Part shown: piece by piece, positions 2,524-38,699 of the stretch
Layout: each line of letters begins with the position of its first letter
Position numbering within the stretch: the first letter of the stretch is position 1
Origin: Planctomycetia bacterium
GTDB taxonomy: Bacteria; Planctomycetota; Planctomycetia; Pirellulales; UBA1268
Length of the DNA: 39,795 bases
Direction of reading: 5' to 3'
Assembly: GCA_021414115.1 (NCBI GenBank)
Contig: JAIOPD010000006.1
Location: 1-39,795, forward strand
The notes under the pieces: model-generated
Databases searched by the model: none
The model's input: only the letters and a program-made list of their open reading frames with translations
What the model was told of the DNA's origin: nothing
Program-made: the position numbers and the translations under genes

Positions 2524-3543
2524 ATGAACGACGTGACTGACGACGACATTATCGCGCATGGCCGTGAGATTCTCCGCGCCGAGGCCGCGGCCGTGCTGCA
2601 CGCCGCCGACTCGCTCGACGCCGCGTTCTGCCGCGGCGTGCGACTCATCCAGCACTGCACCGGCAGCGTGGTGGTGACGGGTATCGGCAAGGCCGGGCTC
2701 GTGGCGAGAAAGATCTCAGCGACACTCGCCTCGACCGGCACGCCGAGCCACTTCCTACATCCGGCGGAGGCGATGCACGGTGATCTCGGCGCCCTGCGGG
2801 CCGACGACGTCGTGCTCGCACTGTCGCAATCAGGCGAGACCGAGGAGATCACCCGGCTCCTGCCGCACCTCGCCGCCCGCCGCGTCGCTCTCGTGGCGCT
2901 CACGGGGCGGCCCGACAGCACCCTCGGCCGTGCGGCCCGGGTCGTCGTGCCCACCGGCGCGGTCCGCGAGGCCTGCGATCTGGGGCTCGCGCCCAGCACG
3001 AGCACCTCCCTCCTGCTGGCGCTCGGCGATGCGCTCGCGCTCGCGACCAGCAGGCTGCGGCAGTTCACCGCCGAGGACTTCGCCGCCCGGCATCCCGGCG
3101 GCAGCCTCGGCCGGCAACTCATGCTCGTCGAAGACGCGATGCGGCCGCTCGCCGAATGCCGGCTGGCCCACCCCGACGACACCGTGCGCAGCGTCTTCGC
3201 GCGGCCGCTGCCCGCCCGCCGCACCGGTGCCGTGATGATCATCGACGATGCCAGCGTGGTCGTGGGCATCTTCACCGACAGCGATCTGGCGAGACTCTTC
3301 GAGCGACGGCACGACGCGGCGCTCGACGAGCCGATCGGCCGCGTGATGACGAGCCGCCCCACGACGCTCCCGGTGGGCACGCGGCTCCGCGACGCCGTGG
3401 CGATCCTTGAATCGCGGCGGCTCAGCGAACTGCCCATCCTCGGCCACGACGGCCGGCCCGCCGGCCTGCTCGACATCGTCGATCTCGTCGGCCTCGTGCC
3501 CGCCGAGGTCATCGACGTCGCGCGGCCGTCCGTCGCCGCCTGA
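2524..3543 (+). CDS. kdsD: D-arabinose-5-phosphate isomerase (KpsF/GutQ type)
   Basis: The 339-residue protein interconverts ribulose 5-phosphate and arabinose 5-phosphate, the first step of Kdo synthesis for LPS. Residues about 45-175 form the SIS sugar-isomerase domain, with VVVTGIGKAGLVARKISAT, HPAEAMHGDLG and LSQSGETEE all matching family motifs. AARHPGGSLGRQL at about 182-194 is the conserved linker before two CBS domains (about 205-265 and 275-335). Length and order equal those of E. coli KdsD and GutQ. I chose ATG 2524 because it gives the family's usual N-terminus; the frame is open further upstream through promoter sequence. kdsC follows 35 bp downstream, so the two consecutive-pathway genes are probably one operon. 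Confidence 0.95.
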   Translation: MNDVTDDDIIAHGREILRAEAAAVLHAADSLDAAFCRGVRLIQHCTGSVVVTGIGKAGLVARKISATLASTGTPSHFLHPAEAMHGDLGALRADDVVLALSQSGETEEITRLLPHLAARRVALVALTGRPDSTLGRAARVVVPTGAVREACDLGLAPSTSTSLLLALGDALALATSRLRQFTAEDFAARHPGGSLGRQLMLVEDAMRPLAECRLAHPDDTVRSVFARPLPARRTGAVMIIDDASVVVGIFTDSDLARLFERRHDAALDEPIGRVMTSRPTTLPVGTRLRDAVAILESRRLSELPILGHDGRPAGLLDIVDLVGLVPAEVIDVARPSVAA

Positions 3544-3578: not shown

Positions 3579-4121
3579 ATGCCCGCCGCCGCCGACCTCG
3601 ACCGCCGCCTCGCCCGTGTGCAGCTCCTCCTGCTCGACGTGGATGGCGTGCTCACCGACGGCGGCGTCACCTGGAACAACCAGGGCATCGAGTCGAAGAC
3701 ATTCCACATCCGCGACGGGCTCGGCCTGCGGGCCTGGCAGAAGGCCGGCGGACGGACGGGGATCGTCACCGGCCGGTCGAGCCATGTCGTGCAGCTGCGG
3801 GCCGAGGAGCTCGGGATCGCCATCGTGCGGCAGGGCGTGGAGGACAAACTCGCGGCGGCCGAGGCGCTGCTCGCCGAGTGCGGCCTCTCCTGGGAGCAGA
3901 CGGCCTTCGTGGGCGATGACCTGCCCGATCTGCCCGTCGTGTCGCTGTGCGGCGTGGGCGTGGCGGTGGCCGATGCCTGCCCCGAACTCATCGAGGCGGC
4001 GGCGCTCGTGACGCGGCTGCCGGGCGGCCGCGGTGCGGTTCGCGAGGTGATCGAGCGGATGCTCAAGGCGCGGGGCAGTTGGGACGCGGTCGTCGCCCGC
4101 TATGCGGCCAAGCGGGTCTGA
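3579..4121 (+). CDS. kdsC: Kdo-8-phosphate phosphatase
   Basis: The 180-residue protein is a HAD phosphatase of the C0 type, without a cap, that removes phosphate from Kdo 8-phosphate. LLLLDVDGVLTDGG at about 13-26 is motif I, with both Asp residues. TGRSS at about 64-68 is motif II, DKLAAAE supplies the motif III Lys, and FVGDDLPDLPV is motif IV. The length is normal for KdsC. The gene follows kdsD, which makes the substrate precursor, and is 25 bp before the large LptC-like gene. The intervening enzyme KdsA is not in the window. Confidence 0.95.
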   Translation: MPAAADLDRRLARVQLLLLDVDGVLTDGGVTWNNQGIESKTFHIRDGLGLRAWQKAGGRTGIVTGRSSHVVQLRAEELGIAIVRQGVEDKLAAAEALLAECGLSWEQTAFVGDDLPDLPVVSLCGVGVAVADACPELIEAAALVTRLPGGRGAVREVIERMLKARGSWDAVVARYAAKRV

Positions 4122-4146: not shown

Positions 4147-7100
4147 ATGGAACATCGACTCGGACGCACGCTGCGGGTGTTTCTCGTCGTCTTGGCGGCG
4201 GCGGGCTTCTACCGGCTTGCCGCCGTACCGATCATCGAGCCGCGGATCCGCGACACGTCGACCGAGCACGAGATGACGCCCGAGGAGGCGGCGGCGATCC
4301 GAGCACGTGCAGACCAGCGGCTGGCGGCGCTGGGCGACGTGTTTCCGCCGGGCTCGTGGGAACGGGAAAATCCCATCATGCTCGAGAGCCGCCAGATGCG
4401 GCTGCTCTTCAAGGACTACCACTCGCTGCCCGACGGCCGCGTGAACCTCGTGCCCTGCACGCTGGTCGTGCTTCCCGACAAGAACCGCGTGGCCGCCAAC
4501 GGCCAACCGGGCCGCACGCTCGTGCTCCGCGCGCCGCAGGGCGCCGTCCTCGAGTTCGACGAGCCGCTCGATCTGCGACAGGGCCGCCTCGCCAAGCTCG
4601 TGGGGGGGAGCCTCCGCGGACAAGTGACGATCCGCGGCACTCCCAGCATGCCCGGCGCGGAGGATGACATCGAGATCGTGACCCGCGACATCGAGCTCGA
4701 TGAACTCGAGGTCAGCACGGGGGAGATGGTGCAGTTTCGCTACGGCCGCTCCAGCGGCAGCGGCCGGGGGCTCGTGGCCCGGCTCAAGCCGCGGCCCGGC
4801 GGCTCGGGACCGTCCGCATCCGGTCAGGCCGACAAGGGACCAAACATCGGCGGTGTCGATTCGATCCGCCTCGACCGCGACGTGAAGATGCGAATCGAAG
4901 GGATGGCTGGCGGCATGCTCCCCGGGGGGCCGGCTCCAGCCGCCCAGCCACTCGCGGCACAGCCGGCGGGCGACGCGACAGCCGCCACCGCACCGCCCGC
5001 ACCGCCTCCGGTGCTCGTCAGCTGCCGCGGCGCACTGTGCATGAACGTGTCGTCCAACGTGATCACGCTGGAAGAAAATGTTGACGTGATCCGGGCCGCA
5101 GCCGATGGATCGACCGATCAGCTGGCCTGCGACCTGCTCGCGATCGTGCTCGCGCGGAAGCAGAAGACACCCGCCGCCGCCGGCCAGCCTGGTGACGAGG
5201 GCCGCGGCAGTCTCGAACCGGTGGAGATTCAGGCCAAGGGCTCGCCCGTCGTCGCCCGTTCGAGCGGCGCGGCGCTCGAAGCCCGGGCGGCCCGGCTCGG
5301 CTACGAGATCGCGACGCGAAGGATCCTCCTCGATGGCGAGGAGCCGGTGTCACTCGTGGCGAAGGGGACCGAAATGGAGGCCCGGAAGATCGACTACTGC
5401 CCGGGCCCCGCGGGTGATCCCGGGTCGCTGATGGCCGTCGGTCCGGGCTGGCTCCGCGTGCGGTCGGAGAAGTCGCCCCCCGCGCAGGCCCGGTGGCAGC
5501 AATGGCTGCGGATGCGTCCTGACGGCGCCGGGCATGTGGTGTCGATCGCCGGCGATGCCGACGTGACGGTCGAAACGCAGGGCCGGCTGAGCGCGGCCGA
5601 AATGCACCTCTGGCTCGACGTCGTGAAGCGGCCGCAGGGCGGGAAGGCCGATGCGGCGGCGGGTCCGGATCTTTCGGGCGTGCGGCCGTCGCGGCTCCTC
5701 GCCCGCGGCATGGTCGAGGCTGACGCCGCAGAAGTCGCCGCACGGACCGACCGGCTCGAGCTCTGGTTTCGAACCGTCGAGCCGCCGCCGGTCGTGGCCG
5801 CGGCCACGGCTCCACCCGCGGCCGCGGCCCAGCCCGGGTCTCCGGCGCCGCAGCCTGCCCTGCCGCCGCCGGCCGCCGCGCCGCAGAAGCCACCGGCCGC
5901 CCGCGGCCGGATGATCGCGACGGCGACGCTCGTCCGCGGACAGGTCACGCTCTCGCCCGCTGGAAACGAAGTCGATGAGATGTCGATGGAGGGGCAGGTG
6001 CATCTGGTCGAGCAGCCGCGCGATCCACTCGCGCCGGTTCCGGCTGGCGGCCCGCCGCCTGAGCCCGGAATCGAGATTCGAGGCGACCAAATGCAGCTGT
6101 CGCGGGCGACACGTCCCGACGCGAAGGCGATCGTCTCGGGTCGACCGGCGGTCGTGAAAGGACGAGGGCTTCATCTCGAAGGGCCGATGGTGGAGTTCGA
6201 ACGCGGCCAAAACCGGCTCACCGTCGACGGCGCCGGAAGGCTCTCGCTGCCGATGGCCGGCGGGGCGGGAGCGCTCGACTCGTTCGCGTTCACCGGCGGT
6301 GCGCCGCGACCCCCGGTCGCTCCAGCCGGACCGCCCGGCACGCTTGACGTCACTTGGAAGGGCCGCCTCGACTTCGACGGCGTCAAGGCGCGGTTCATCG
6401 ACACCGTCGTCGCCACGGGCGGCTCGGCCGACGTGCGCTCCGGATCGCTCGACGTCATCTTCGACCGGCCGTTCGAGTTTGCGGCCGTAGACTCGAAGCC
6501 CGGCGGCAAGCAGCCCGAGGTGGCGCGGGTCGCATGCGGCGCCGGAGTGAAGATCCAGAGCGAGCAGGTCGACGAGGCCGGCGAGAAGTCGACGGAGCAG
6601 CTGTTCGTCCGCGACCTCGTCATCGACCGGGCGACCGGCGACGTCAGCGGCACGGGACCGGGACGGCTGACGAGCACCCGGTCGGGGCAGGCCCCCGCGA
6701 TGTCGATCCCCGCCGGCACGCAGGGGCCCGCCGCCGTGCAGCCCGTGGCCGCCGCCCAGCGGCCGCACGAGCTCACGTATCTCGGCGTCGATTTCCAACG
6801 CGGTCTGCGGGGCAACCTCCATCGTCGGACGATGGAGTTTCACCAGCGGGTCGAGGCGATCTGGGGCCCGGTGGCCCGGCGCGGTGACACGCTCGATCCG
6901 CACGCGGCCGGCGGCCTGCCCGAGGGCGTCGTGACGATCAACTGCGACGTGCTCGGCGTGGGGCAGGCACCGCCGATGCCAGGCCGACAGCGATCGAGTA
7001 TCGAACTCGGCGCCGGGGGCAATGTGCTCGTGGAGGGGGAGTCGTTCACGGCGCGGAGCGCACGGCTCACCTGGAGCGAGGGCAAGGATCTGCTCGTCTT

Positions 7101-7332
7101 CGAAGGGGATGGGCGAAGCGACGCCCAACTCTTCCGACAACTCAAGACCGGCGCCCAGCCCTCGAGCGCGTCGGCCGGCAAGATCCTCTACTGGCGCGGG
7201 CTCAACCGCGTCGACATCGAGGACGCCCGCTATCTCGACCTCGACCAGCTTCGGGGCGGTGCCGCGGGCGGGCTGCCGGGAGGGCAGGGACGGCCGGCTG
7301 TGTTGACGCCGCCCCGCGTGCCCGGCACGTGA
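4147..7332 (+). CDS. Large anchored protein with OstA/LptA-like repeats, probable LPS transport
   Basis: The 1061-residue protein has one N-terminal membrane segment at about 8-26 (RVFLVVLAAAGFYRLAAVP) and no other clear one, which is the layout of LptC. The rest is beta-rich, with recurring OstA-like phrases such as ITLEENVDVIR, LEARAARLGYEIATRRILLDG, IEIRGDQMQLSR and GGNVLVEGESFTARSARLTW. These resemble the strand-turn pattern of LptA/LptC beta-jellyrolls. Pro/Ala-rich linkers at about 255-295 and 550-600 separate the blocks. It follows kdsD-kdsC by 25 bp. LptC is normally about 190 residues and LptA about 180, so this would be a fused or expanded form. The family assignment is inference from motif style and context; I do not recognise a named full-length family. 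Confidence 0.7.
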   Translation: MEHRLGRTLRVFLVVLAAAGFYRLAAVPIIEPRIRDTSTEHEMTPEEAAAIRARADQRLAALGDVFPPGSWERENPIMLESRQMRLLFKDYHSLPDGRVNLVPCTLVVLPDKNRVAANGQPGRTLVLRAPQGAVLEFDEPLDLRQGRLAKLVGGSLRGQVTIRGTPSMPGAEDDIEIVTRDIELDELEVSTGEMVQFRYGRSSGSGRGLVARLKPRPGGSGPSASGQADKGPNIGGVDSIRLDRDVKMRIEGMAGGMLPGGPAPAAQPLAAQPAGDATAATAPPAPPPVLVSCRGALCMNVSSNVITLEENVDVIRAAADGSTDQLACDLLAIVLARKQKTPAAAGQPGDEGRGSLEPVEIQAKGSPVVARSSGAALEARAARLGYEIATRRILLDGEEPVSLVAKGTEMEARKIDYCPGPAGDPGSLMAVGPGWLRVRSEKSPPAQARWQQWLRMRPDGAGHVVSIAGDADVTVETQGRLSAAEMHLWLDVVKRPQGGKADAAAGPDLSGVRPSRLLARGMVEADAAEVAARTDRLELWFRTVEPPPVVAAATAPPAAAAQPGSPAPQPALPPPAAAPQKPPAARGRMIATATLVRGQVTLSPAGNEVDEMSMEGQVHLVEQPRDPLAPVPAGGPPPEPGIEIRGDQMQLSRATRPDAKAIVSGRPAVVKGRGLHLEGPMVEFERGQNRLTVDGAGRLSLPMAGGAGALDSFAFTGGAPRPPVAPAGPPGTLDVTWKGRLDFDGVKARFIDTVVATGGSADVRSGSLDVIFDRPFEFAAVDSKPGGKQPEVARVACGAGVKIQSEQVDEAGEKSTEQLFVRDLVIDRATGDVSGTGPGRLTSTRSGQAPAMSIPAGTQGPAAVQPVAAAQRPHELTYLGVDFQRGLRGNLHRRTMEFHQRVEAIWGPVARRGDTLDPHAAGGLPEGVVTINCDVLGVGQAPPMPGRQRSSIELGAGGNVLVEGESFTARSARLTWSEGKDLLVFEGDGRSDAQLFRQLKTGAQPSSASAGKILYWRGLNRVDIEDARYLDLDQLRGGAAGGLPGGQGRPAVLTPPRVPGT

Positions 7333-23501: not shown

Positions 23502-23544
23502 TTCAGCACCTTTGACTGCGAAAAATCATCACAACTGTCGATTT

Positions 23545-23559
23545 TGAGAATCAGTCTCG
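23545..23559. promoter_or_regulatory. Fur-like operator candidate
   Basis: TGAGAATCAGTCTCG matches the well-known Fur-box form TGAGAATCATTCTCA at 13 of 15 positions and is itself a partial palindrome (5 of 7 pairs). It lies in an AT-richer divergent gap, 44 bp upstream of the DUF1559 ATG and 209 bp upstream of the ABC ATPase GTG, so it would act on the DUF1559 gene first. Base similarity alone does not prove Fur binding. Confidence 0.4.
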
Positions 23560-23768
23560 TTTGTGGCATCGTAGTTATTGTTCAAGATTGGTCAAGAGCA
23601 GGACCGGGGCTTCTGTGTTTATTTGATGAAGACGCCTTTTTTTCGGGACTTTTTGCGGAGTTCCGTCCCCTCCTCTCCACATCCGTTGGCGATGCGATAC
23701 AACCCATTGAATGCCGTGTGGGCAACGGGTCCGCCGGCGAGCGGAGCGACGAGCGAAGGGACGACACC

Positions 23769-24725
23769 GTGATCCAAGAAGCCGCAGCCTCCAGCCAGAC
23801 AATGCGACGCAGCGAATCGGCGGAGGTTGTGGTCGAGGCCCGCAATCTTTCCAAGGTCTATCGCGACTTCTGGGGTCGCAGCAAAAAGACGGCGCTCAAA
23901 CCGCTCGACCTCGACATTCGGCGCGGCGAGATCTTCGGACTGCTCGGCCCCAACGGAGCGGGCAAGACGACCACGCTCAAGCTGCTTCTCGGACTGATCT
24001 TTCCGACCTCGGGCGAGGCGCTCGTGTTCGGCCGTCCGGCAACCGACGTCTCGAAGAACGAGCGTATCGGATACCTGCCCGAGGAGTCGTATCTCTACAA
24101 GTTTCTCGACGCCGAAGAAACGCTCGACTTTTACGGTCGCCTCTTCGGCATGTCTCCCGAGGAACGCCGCCGGCGGGCCGCGGCCCTGATCGAGATGGTG
24201 GGGCTGTCGCGAGATCGCAAGCGGCAGTTGCGGGAGTATTCGAAGGGCATGACCCGTCGCATCGGCGTGGCCCAGGCGCTCATCAACGATCCCGAACTGG
24301 TGATCCTCGACGAGCCGACCAGCGGCCTCGATCCGATCGGCACCCGCGAGATGAAGGATCTGATCATCGACCTCAAGTCGCGCGGCAAGACGGTCATCAT
24401 GTGTTCCCATCTGCTGGCCGACGTCGAGGACGTCTGCGACCGGATCGCCGTGCTCCACCAGGGCGAACTGAAGGAGCTCGGTCGCGTCGAGGAATTGCTG
24501 CGGGTCACGGGAGTGACGCAGATCAGGGCCACGGGCCTGTCGCCGGCCGCGACGGCGGAGCTGAAGGCCGTGCTCGAACGTCATGGCGCGGCAGACATCG
24601 AGATCGGTAACCCACGATCGACGCTGGAGGATCTGTTCCTCGAGGTCGTGAGAGACACCGAGGCCCGTCCCGGACGCCGCGCCCGCCGTCCCGCCGGCGC
24701 CTCCGACGCCACGCGAACAGGGTGA
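23769..24725 (+). CDS. ABC transporter ATPase (ABC-2 export type)
   Basis: The 318-residue protein contains [19 protein letters not shown] (Walker A, about 59-77), [16 protein letters not shown], the export-type signature [30 protein letters not shown] (Walker B) and MCSHLL (H-loop). The YSKGM form is typical of ABC-2 exporters. The start is GTG 23769, with GAAGGGA 8-9 bp upstream; ATG 23802 is an alternative. It sits 9 bp before its permease and heads a three-gene operon. The substrate is unknown. The far upstream open frame is not counted. Confidence 0.93.
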
Positions 24726-36929: not shown

Positions 36930-38588
36930 TTATTCCTTGAACTCTTCGTCCACCGACTGGTTGCGGTAGATCGGCAGATGGCGGTAGTAGACCTCGAGGA
37001 TCATCGTCGACAGCGCCGTGCAGTAGATGCGGCCGGCCGCTTCGGCACCGTGGCCACCGTTGACTCCCTCGTGCCAACTGCCCGCCTCGTGACCGCTCGA
37101 AGCCTGGTTCTTGAGGAGCAGTTCCTTCATCTTCTTGTTCCACGAGATCCACACCTCGCCTTCCATGTGGTGCATGATCTGCGTGGCGTAGTAGTCGAAG
37201 TAGAGATCTTTCGTGGGACCGAGCTTCGCCAGATAGGCGACGCCCCGCTGCAGCGCCGGGTTGTCCTTCTTCCAGCCCAGGTACATGCGGCACAGCAGCC
37301 CGACGGCCGTCGTGCCGGGGCCCCGCGCAGGCCCGGTATAGCCGTAGAACGCTCCGTCGTCGTCCTGCACGGCGTTGAGGAAATCAACGGCCTTCTTGAC
37401 CGTCAGCGGGTTGACCTGCAGGTAGGCCATGTTGCCGCTCTTGAGGGCCATGATCTGCCAGCCCACGGCCGACGTGTCGCCCGGCTGCCTTGGGGAATAA
37501 CGCCAGCCGCCACCTACCGGATCCTGGGCCTGCATGATGAAGTTGAGCGCGAGCTGCGTCGGCCCGGCGAGCCGGTTGTCCTGCGACATCGCATAGCATT
37601 CCGAGAGCGCGATCCCCGCAAGGCCCTGTGAATACAGGCTTCCGCCGGCGCCATACGCCTTGCCATTGCCCTTGACCGCCATCTGGGCCAGGAAGGAAAT
37701 GCCGCGCTCGACCGTGGGCTTGAACGGTCCTTCACGGTGCGTGTAGCCGCGACCCAGGAACGGCAGGATGGCCATCGCCGTGGCGCCGCACCGGTCGGCC
37801 GCCTTGCTCTTGCCCGATGCCGAACAGTTGCAGCCCTGGCAGTTGGCGAGATCGAACGACCAACCCCCGTCAGGAAGTTGATGCTGCGCGAGCCATTTCA
37901 GCGCCCGGTCAACGGCCTGCTCCGTGTCGCCGCCGCCGCCGCCGGCCGCGGCGAGTTTCGCGGCCTGGGCTCGGCCGCCGATGCCTCCCCCCTTGCCGCC
38001 GATCGCGCCCATCTGCGCCATCATGTCGGACGCGGGCGCCGTCTCGGTGCCGAAGTCGGTGAACTCGACGGCGAGCGGGGCCGCATCCACGTCGGTCGCA
38101 TTTGACACGACCTCGACCGGCGTCACCGCCACCTCGGTCGTCACCGTGACGTCGGCCGTGGCATCGGCCGTCTGGACCGTTTCCTGCTGAGGCAGGTCGT
38201 CCTCGAACTCGTTGAACTCGTCCTCGACCTCGGGCGCGTTGGACGTGATGACCCGCGGCGTCTCCTTCTTAGGCGGCTCGTTGACGATCAGCGCCATGCC
38301 GAGCAGCGCGACGACATGCACGAGCATGCTGATGGCCCAGGCCGGCGCCTGCCTGACGGCCGCGCGGCCCAGCGACTCCTCGCCGTCTTCCTGGTCGGGA
38401 GGGGCGGCCTCCTGGGGCGGTGCAGCCTTCTGGGGCTCCGGTCGCCTCGCGGGCGGCGCGGCCGCCGCGGCAGCGGCCGGCTTCGGCGGTGTCGCCGCAG
38501 CTTTGGCGGGGGGCTTGGCGGCAGGAGGCTGGGCCGCTGGCGGACGGGTGGCCTTCTTCACCGGATCGGGATCGATTTGGCTCGACAT
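36930..38588 (-). CDS. Membrane-anchored squalene-cyclase-like toroid protein, copy B
   Basis: The 552-residue protein has a Pro/Ala-rich cytoplasmic N-terminus (1-65), a membrane segment at about 82-103 (AWAISMLVHVVALLGMALIV) and an acidic linker (EVEDEFNEFEDD) that leads to a Gly-rich stretch. The toroid at about 225-545 shares with copy A WLAQHQLPDGGWSFDLANC, GGGWRYSPRQPGDTSAVGWQIMALKSG, AVGLLCRMYLGW, GHEAGSW and LEVYYRHLPIYR. Cys residues CQGCNC plus a later Cys mark the same first-repeat position. DXDD is absent. ATG 38588 is chosen because GGGGG is upstream and the frame before it has no similarity. It is likely cotranscribed with copy A and faces a promoter at 38700-38708. Confidence 0.88.
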   Translation of the reverse strand: MSSQIDPDPVKKATRPPAAQPPAAKPPAKAAATPPKPAAAAAAAPPARRPEPQKAAPPQEAAPPDQEDGEESLGRAAVRQAPAWAISMLVHVVALLGMALIVNEPPKKETPRVITSNAPEVEDEFNEFEDDLPQQETVQTADATADVTVTTEVAVTPVEVVSNATDVDAAPLAVEFTDFGTETAPASDMMAQMGAIGGKGGGIGGRAQAAKLAAAGGGGGDTEQAVDRALKWLAQHQLPDGGWSFDLANCQGCNCSASGKSKAADRCGATAMAILPFLGRGYTHREGPFKPTVERGISFLAQMAVKGNGKAYGAGGSLYSQGLAGIALSECYAMSQDNRLAGPTQLALNFIMQAQDPVGGGWRYSPRQPGDTSAVGWQIMALKSGNMAYLQVNPLTVKKAVDFLNAVQDDDGAFYGYTGPARGPGTTAVGLLCRMYLGWKKDNPALQRGVAYLAKLGPTKDLYFDYYATQIMHHMEGEVWISWNKKMKELLLKNQASSGHEAGSWHEGVNGGHGAEAAGRIYCTALSTMILEVYYRHLPIYRNQSVDEEFKE

Positions 38589-38699
38589 TGGATGGCCCCC
38601 GTCAGCATTGCCTCTTGAGTGATGCTCAGCACGACTGCCTGGGCAGTCGGTATGACTCATGGAATCGCTGGCTCTAGAACCGGCGAAAACTCTTCTTCA

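Follow-up and report, generated by a model that had tools for sequence, protein, structure and literature searches.

The window analysed here is a 39,795-nucleotide stretch of contig JAIOPD010000006.1 (GenBank assembly GCA_021414115.1) from a planctomycete of the order Pirellulales. On its forward strand, behind kdsD and kdsC, two genes of 3-deoxy-D-manno-octulosonic acid (Kdo) synthesis, an open reading frame encodes a long protein with a single N-terminal anchor, a domain resembling LptC and five modules resembling OstA/LptA (Table 1). Very probably, this protein serves planctomycete lipopolysaccharide (LPS) transport (Lpt) as its periplasmic bridge, in the form of a single covalent chain of the type LptC-(LptA-like)n.

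Table 1 Features of the probable bridge gene and its upstream neighbours (positions in the window)
Feature	Position	Strand	Basis
Probable single-chain LptC-(LptA-like)n bridge protein	4147..7332	+	Open frame, 1061 amino acids
Single N-terminal membrane anchor	4168..4236	+	Residues about 8-30; hydropathy maximum; helix 2-30 in AlphaFold model
Putative LptC-like periplasmic domain (residues 76-260)	4372..4926	+	hhalign to 24-sequence LptC profile
OstA/LptA-like module M1 (residues 286-447)	5002..5487	+	hhalign similarity to M4 and M5; family profile matches PDB LptA chains here
OstA/LptA-like module M2 (residues 448-586)	5488..5904	+	hhalign to M1 33.0, to M4 40.5; shuffled maxima 15.5, 16.4
OstA/LptA-like module M3 (residues 587-729)	5905..6333	+	hhalign to M1 33.5, shuffled maximum 13.8; in VIA-aligned range
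OstA/LptA-like module M4 (residues 730-874)	6334..6768	+	hhalign to M1 61.6, shuffled maximum 16.1; in VIA-aligned range 582-846
OstA/LptA-like module M5 (residues 875-1035)	6769..7251	+	hhalign to M1 51.2, shuffled maximum 19.1
kdsD (arabinose-5-phosphate isomerase, KpsF/GutQ family)	2524..3543	+	TIGR00393 250 bits, cut-off 203.7; SIS and CBS domains
kdsC (Kdo-8-phosphate phosphatase)	3579..4121	+	TIGR01670 146.9 bits, cut-off 106.95

The probable bridge gene and its Kdo locus

A protein search found a homologue of the bridge protein in all 60 sampled relatives, which span 35 genera and include 23 genomes of other families in the order. Identity reaches 94% at the top and falls to about 29-44% in those other families, far more conservation than expected by chance. 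An alternative, longer start lies at position 4102; the same ATG (opening MEHRLGRT or a close variant) begins the frame in 28 of 30 full-length relatives, with a CTG and a start at the second residue in the other two. Hydropathy analysis gave one segment of transmembrane strength, with a Kyte-Doolittle peak of 2.09 at around residue 12 and a maximum of 1.19 outside residues 1-40. In nearly all rows of our family alignment A2 (31 bridge family members of 985-1263 amino acids, median 1050), a single hydrophobic segment at the N-terminus precedes a long, strand-rich region common to them; a few rows lack the segment because our script set the start codon behind it. Homologues that share 59-79% identity with the window protein are encoded at nine related loci (L033, L041, L042, L045, L047, L051, L056, L058 and L059) in public metagenome-assembled genome records titled 'Candidatus Kuenenia stuttgartiensis'. 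These titles look mislabelled, since the loci group with the window's own relatives.

The bridge frame starts 25 bp after the end of kdsC. A tblastn search with its neighbours in the window placed both kdsD and kdsC upstream of the bridge gene in 21 of the 23 order-level loci (L086-L108) and in three more loci of the same genus or family. Among the 37 closer loci (L031-L067), 33 have kdsC upstream and the remaining four start inside the bridge gene. At locus L091 (genome G042), kdsD is directly upstream of the bridge gene and no kdsC was found between them; it may have moved or diverged there. An exception to the conserved order is L107 (G058), where neither gene was found in the 5 kb fetched upstream. 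The gene downstream of the bridge frame differs among loci. For kdsD in the window, the start codon was picked by eye (the family scan ran from position 2527, and a start at 2395 is also possible).

In Escherichia coli the order is kdsD-kdsC-lptC-lptA-lptB, with lptC and lptA (576 and 558 bp including stops, encoding 191 and 185 amino acids) occupying the site of the bridge gene; in the window's own genome lptB lies away from the bridge locus. The observations on which the original prediction was built, a 1061-residue, single-anchor frame 25 bp behind the kdsD-kdsC pair, held up in the open frame, the shared start and the hydropathy profile, and the position after kdsC is kept across families.

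OstA-like modules and the N-terminal domain

We built an AlphaFold model with 31 sequences, the window's and those of related loci. Its mean predicted local distance difference test score (pLDDT) was 54.5 and its predicted template modelling score 0.46; nearly half of the model is at pLDDT below 50, and the best-modelled region runs roughly from residue 430 to 840. In the VIA structure comparison, rows 1-29 were all LptD N-terminus, LptA, LptH or LptC (Z 13.3 to 7.0, with up to 12.3 for LptH/LptA), with alignments covering 99-153 residues within residues 582-846; the next row was OspA at Z 5.1. All five Foldseek matches below 1e-3 were LptD, including rank 3, 4q35 ('Structure of a membrane protein'), which is LptD according to a table in PMC8407342, and were followed by LptA, LptH and LptC rows, most with probability near 1. 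The predicted structure shows the OstA β-jellyroll fold in residues 582-846, and we confine this claim to that part because the VIA Lpt rows align there. The original prediction had looked to AlphaFold for a continuous jellyroll groove and had taken a fold without the OstA jellyroll as telling against it. The jellyroll-type fold did emerge, with Lpt proteins filling the top of the VIA list, whereas a groove running the whole chain was not evident in a model with so much at low pLDDT.

Comparison of module profiles by hhalign divides residues 286-1035 into five OstA-like modules, M1-M5, that are related to one another. The borders are our own cut of this region and each pair was set against 20 shuffles: nine of the ten pairs scored 27.8-61.6, compared with shuffled maxima of 13.7-19.1. 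M2 and M4 both terminate in a Pro/Ala-rich run (residues 546-571 and 855-871, respectively).

When A2 members were scanned singly and matches counted at E up to 0.1, PF03968 (LptA/LptD_N) matched 22 of 31 (best 2.6e-8) and TIGR03002 (LptA) likewise 22 of 31 (best 3.1e-8). The LptC models TIGR04409 and PF06835 matched 8 and 4 of the 31, and every other family at most 2. Nine members inspected in detail all had an LptA match, located either in M1 or towards the C-terminal end and below the equivalog cut-off in each case; matches of TIGR03002 near the C-terminus, on the M5 side, recurred in several order-level members. When the whole set of PDB sequences was searched with the A2 profile, nine distinct ones matched up to E 10: eight were LptA (best E 7.7e-4), matched on two separate stretches, and the ninth was a PAAR spike tip.

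We compared the region between the anchor and the modules with an LptC profile made from E. coli LptC and 23 Planctomycetota PF06835 regions. Residues 76-260 aligned to it over 123 columns with a probability of 93.2% and a score of 48.6 (shuffled maximum 15.8; hhalign E-values are for one target). M1 scored alike, with 49.5 over 92 columns, and one of the 24 profile rows (L166), which resembles a sequence of the module type, may bias the comparison towards M1. The N-terminal domain (residues 76-285) is not clearly kin to the modules by sequence: its similarity to them was marginal at best, at 20.5 for M4 (shuffles 15.0) and 16.2 for M2 (shuffles 15.8), and did not exceed shuffles for M1, M3 or M5. 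The window protein matched TIGR04409 at E 0.12 on residues 303-335, without passing the cut-off. PF06835 matched none of the 60 order-level relatives, and no separate lptC was recognisable in the window's own genome. We call residues 76-260 LptC-like because of their position, their anchor and the LptC-profile alignment, from which we infer an LptC role.

Lpt genes and fusions across the phylum

The window's own genome contains LptF and LptG, as two PF03739 genes over cut-off, and an LptB scoring 316.8 bits (cut-off 240). It also encodes an LptD-like protein of 1103 amino acids (C46:25393-28704; L112:3394-6705) whose family is present in 59 of the 60 genomes. Ahead of its barrel, this protein carries a lengthy N-terminal region that includes OstA-like stretches, so that the outer-membrane end of the bridge also looks extended. 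Absence of lptB, lptD and lptF from the genome had been named at the outset as an argument against a bridge; instead, lptB, lptF, lptG and a divergent lptD are all there. LpxC is over cut-off in 59 of 60 genomes, the window's own included, and together with kdsD-kdsC beside the bridge gene this implies synthesis of Kdo-lipid A. Within the window, positions 23544-24725 (+) encode an ATP-binding cassette transporter ATPase (PF00005) scoring 139.5 bits to the LptB model; being below cut-off, it is not the genome's best LptB candidate. Elsewhere in the window, the 576-residue product of positions 36930-38660 (-) is matched by PF13243, the squalene-hopene cyclase C-terminal family, at E 1e-9.

Of 119 evenly sampled Planctomycetota genomes, 25 were matched by the A2 profile (E up to 0.001); at E up to 0.01, PF06835 matched 30 (25 over cut-off) and PF03968 matched 34 (32 over cut-off). 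We fetched 20 regions chosen for having LptC/LptA-type matches: kdsD and/or kdsC lay beside the frame in 15 (not in L210, L211 or L222), and 6 of the 10 frames scanned carried LptC and LptA/LptD_N over cut-off in a single frame, counts that give no frequency because the regions were picked for matches. Explicit fusions (for example, L206, L208, L217, L210, L211 and L222) have the LptC domain first and then several LptA/LptD_N stretches, as in the window protein; unlike it, some are shorter (559-793 amino acids) and recognisable by Pfam, and module number and length vary. For the same-class homologue L218, the hhalign alignment to A2 (100%) extends over residues 4-1030; L218 also passes the PF03968 cut-off and has kdsD directly upstream, and thereby ties the window protein to the LptA/LptC fusions. 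At L215 (G077) we noted an apparently split order, kdsD, LptC, LptA, lptB, rpoN, near that of E. coli, a likely unfused state within the phylum. Long OstA-type proteins are also found in other phyla, as with OstA_2 of Bacteroidota.

Together, these results sustain two further proposals of the original prediction. The LptC/LptA-like nature of the protein is backed by family-wide matches to LptA and LptC models, by the PDB profile matches and by the fold comparison, and its fusion into one chain has counterparts in same-locus LptC-LptA fusions elsewhere in the phylum.

A probable one-chain bridge and its alternatives

For the transport steps that go beyond the gene inventory and the fold, we took the known E. 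coli mechanism as a guide. The N-terminal helix would anchor the bridge in the inner membrane beside LptB2FG, which would extract LPS, and the LptC-like domain would receive it from LptF/G at the membrane. The five OstA/LptA-like modules in series would then carry LPS along a hydrophobic groove towards the outer membrane, where LptD would take it up through its N-terminal jellyroll. By this analogy, the groove would be continuous, the chain would contact both LptF/G and LptD, and LPS would be the cargo.

Several results weigh against such a bridge. Direct scans of the window protein gave no Pfam match up to E 1, and in NCBIfam nothing above cut-off and no LptA match; the M2-M3 pair scored 15.4 in hhalign, not above shuffles. 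The pLDDT of the N-terminal domain lies at about 30-35 when the full chain is modelled and at 49.8 when residues 40-345 are modelled alone; VIA on the latter model left Lpt rows tied with Sm-fold rows (Z 4.7-5.9), and because of this tie and the low pLDDT we did not use that model as evidence. The alignment profile of the domain gave one chance match in the PDB and none that was credible, and the LptC-model matches in four of the nine members inspected in detail fall on modules, not on the N-terminus. The LptD assignment is weak by hidden Markov model (HMM) and we regard it as divergent, because only 6 of 11 members of the LptD-like family match PF04453; the family profile also retrieved no LptD from the PDB. 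Finally, PF03968 has no match in the window's own genome, despite the bridge protein and the LptD-like protein encoded there. A model that misses these module-bearing proteins is too insensitive to prove the absence of another LptA, and a separate, divergent LptA may therefore exist in this genome.

The N-terminal domain could instead be lineage-specific. The protein would then be a self-anchored, multi-module LptA-like bridge, and docking on LptF/G would fall to a separate LptC that went unrecognised. The low pLDDT of the domain and its lack of an HMM or PDB match would fit this arrangement, and with a model as insensitive here as PF06835 an LptC could stay hidden. We consider it unlikely nonetheless: the anchor, the domain and the LptA-like modules directly follow kdsC, which is LptC's position; the shuffles fall far below the LptC alignment; and same-locus fusions in other classes have a first domain over the LptC cut-off. 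Nor do we find it probable that the Lpt machine moves another Kdo-linked or lineage-specific glycolipid in place of classical LPS, as a non-LPS substrate has been proposed for the Treponema Lpt apparatus (PMC8407342); the Kdo-lipid A synthesis implied by lpxC and the adjoining kdsD-kdsC speaks for the classical molecule. The long, anchored, β-rich build of the protein, and the TamAB (Z 4.8 and 4.6) and Vps13 chains found by VIA (the best at Z 4.8-4.9) on the poorly modelled residues 226-527, would fit an AsmA/TamB/YhdP-like bridge that moves phospholipid and shares just a β-groove with Lpt proteins. We consider this very improbable, since 29 Lpt rows outscore those chains, the recurrent HMM matches are to LptA and LptC with no AsmA or TamB family among them, and the Kdo locus and lptB, lptF, lptG, lptD and lpxC are present.

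The covalent LptC-(LptA-like)n bridge can also be given an approximate length. With β-strands spaced at 0.48 nm and divided between two sheets, the 29 joined strands after residue 286 amount to about 7 nm, a rough figure for the modelled modules that undercounts the poorly modelled parts and with which an LptC-like domain is to be counted. For E. coli, a published estimate gives about 16 nm for the assembly with one LptA and 21 nm for the periplasm (PMC5575297). Set against these values, the size of the bridge resembles that of an LptC joined to a few LptA, and does not point to a periplasm of exceptional width. The original suggestion that its size serves an unusually wide planctomycete periplasm is not supported, and the rough length does not require it. 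As a tentative possibility, planctomycetes may have swapped the exchangeable LptC-LptA chain for one covalent polypeptide of fixed module number, a molecular ruler that would set the membrane-to-membrane distance and remove the weak LptA-LptA joints, with the module count varying along the phylum with envelope geometry.

LptD, the outer-membrane end of the same pathway, has been reported in Planctomycetes (Speth 2012, PMC3422733); the terms LptA and LptC are absent from the text of that paper, and the bridge is not identified in it. The planctomycete Lpt system has elsewhere been termed largely reduced (PMC8871954). Our searches of the open-licence literature in PubMed Central brought up no description of a planctomycete LptC-LptA fusion. 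Our best reading is that the one-chain bridge is a variant of the known Lpt system that is apparently undescribed in planctomycetes. If so, it would supply the missing periplasmic part, make the planctomycete Lpt pathway complete and offer a one-piece LPS bridge that can be tested. For E. coli, it is still debated whether LPS needs an exchangeable, multimeric LptA or whether a continuous jellyroll is enough, and a covalent bridge is relevant to this question as well.

With LptA (OstA/YhbN; PF03968, TIGR03002), the window protein has in common the predicted fold of the modelled modules, the HMM matches across its family and the locus after kdsC, but LptA is one soluble protein of 185 amino acids, whereas here five modules sit in one anchored chain that scores below the LptA cut-off. 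With LptC (YrbK; PF06835, TIGR04409), it shares the single N-terminal anchor, the place directly after kdsC and the profile match of residues 76-260; LptC has 191 amino acids in contrast to 1061, and its Pfam model is silent throughout the sampled relatives. The elongated MlaD of Veillonella is likewise a transenvelope lipid bridge in which one protein replaces several parts, although it is an MCE protein for phospholipid that has no OstA fold and lies outside the Lpt system (PMC10665443).

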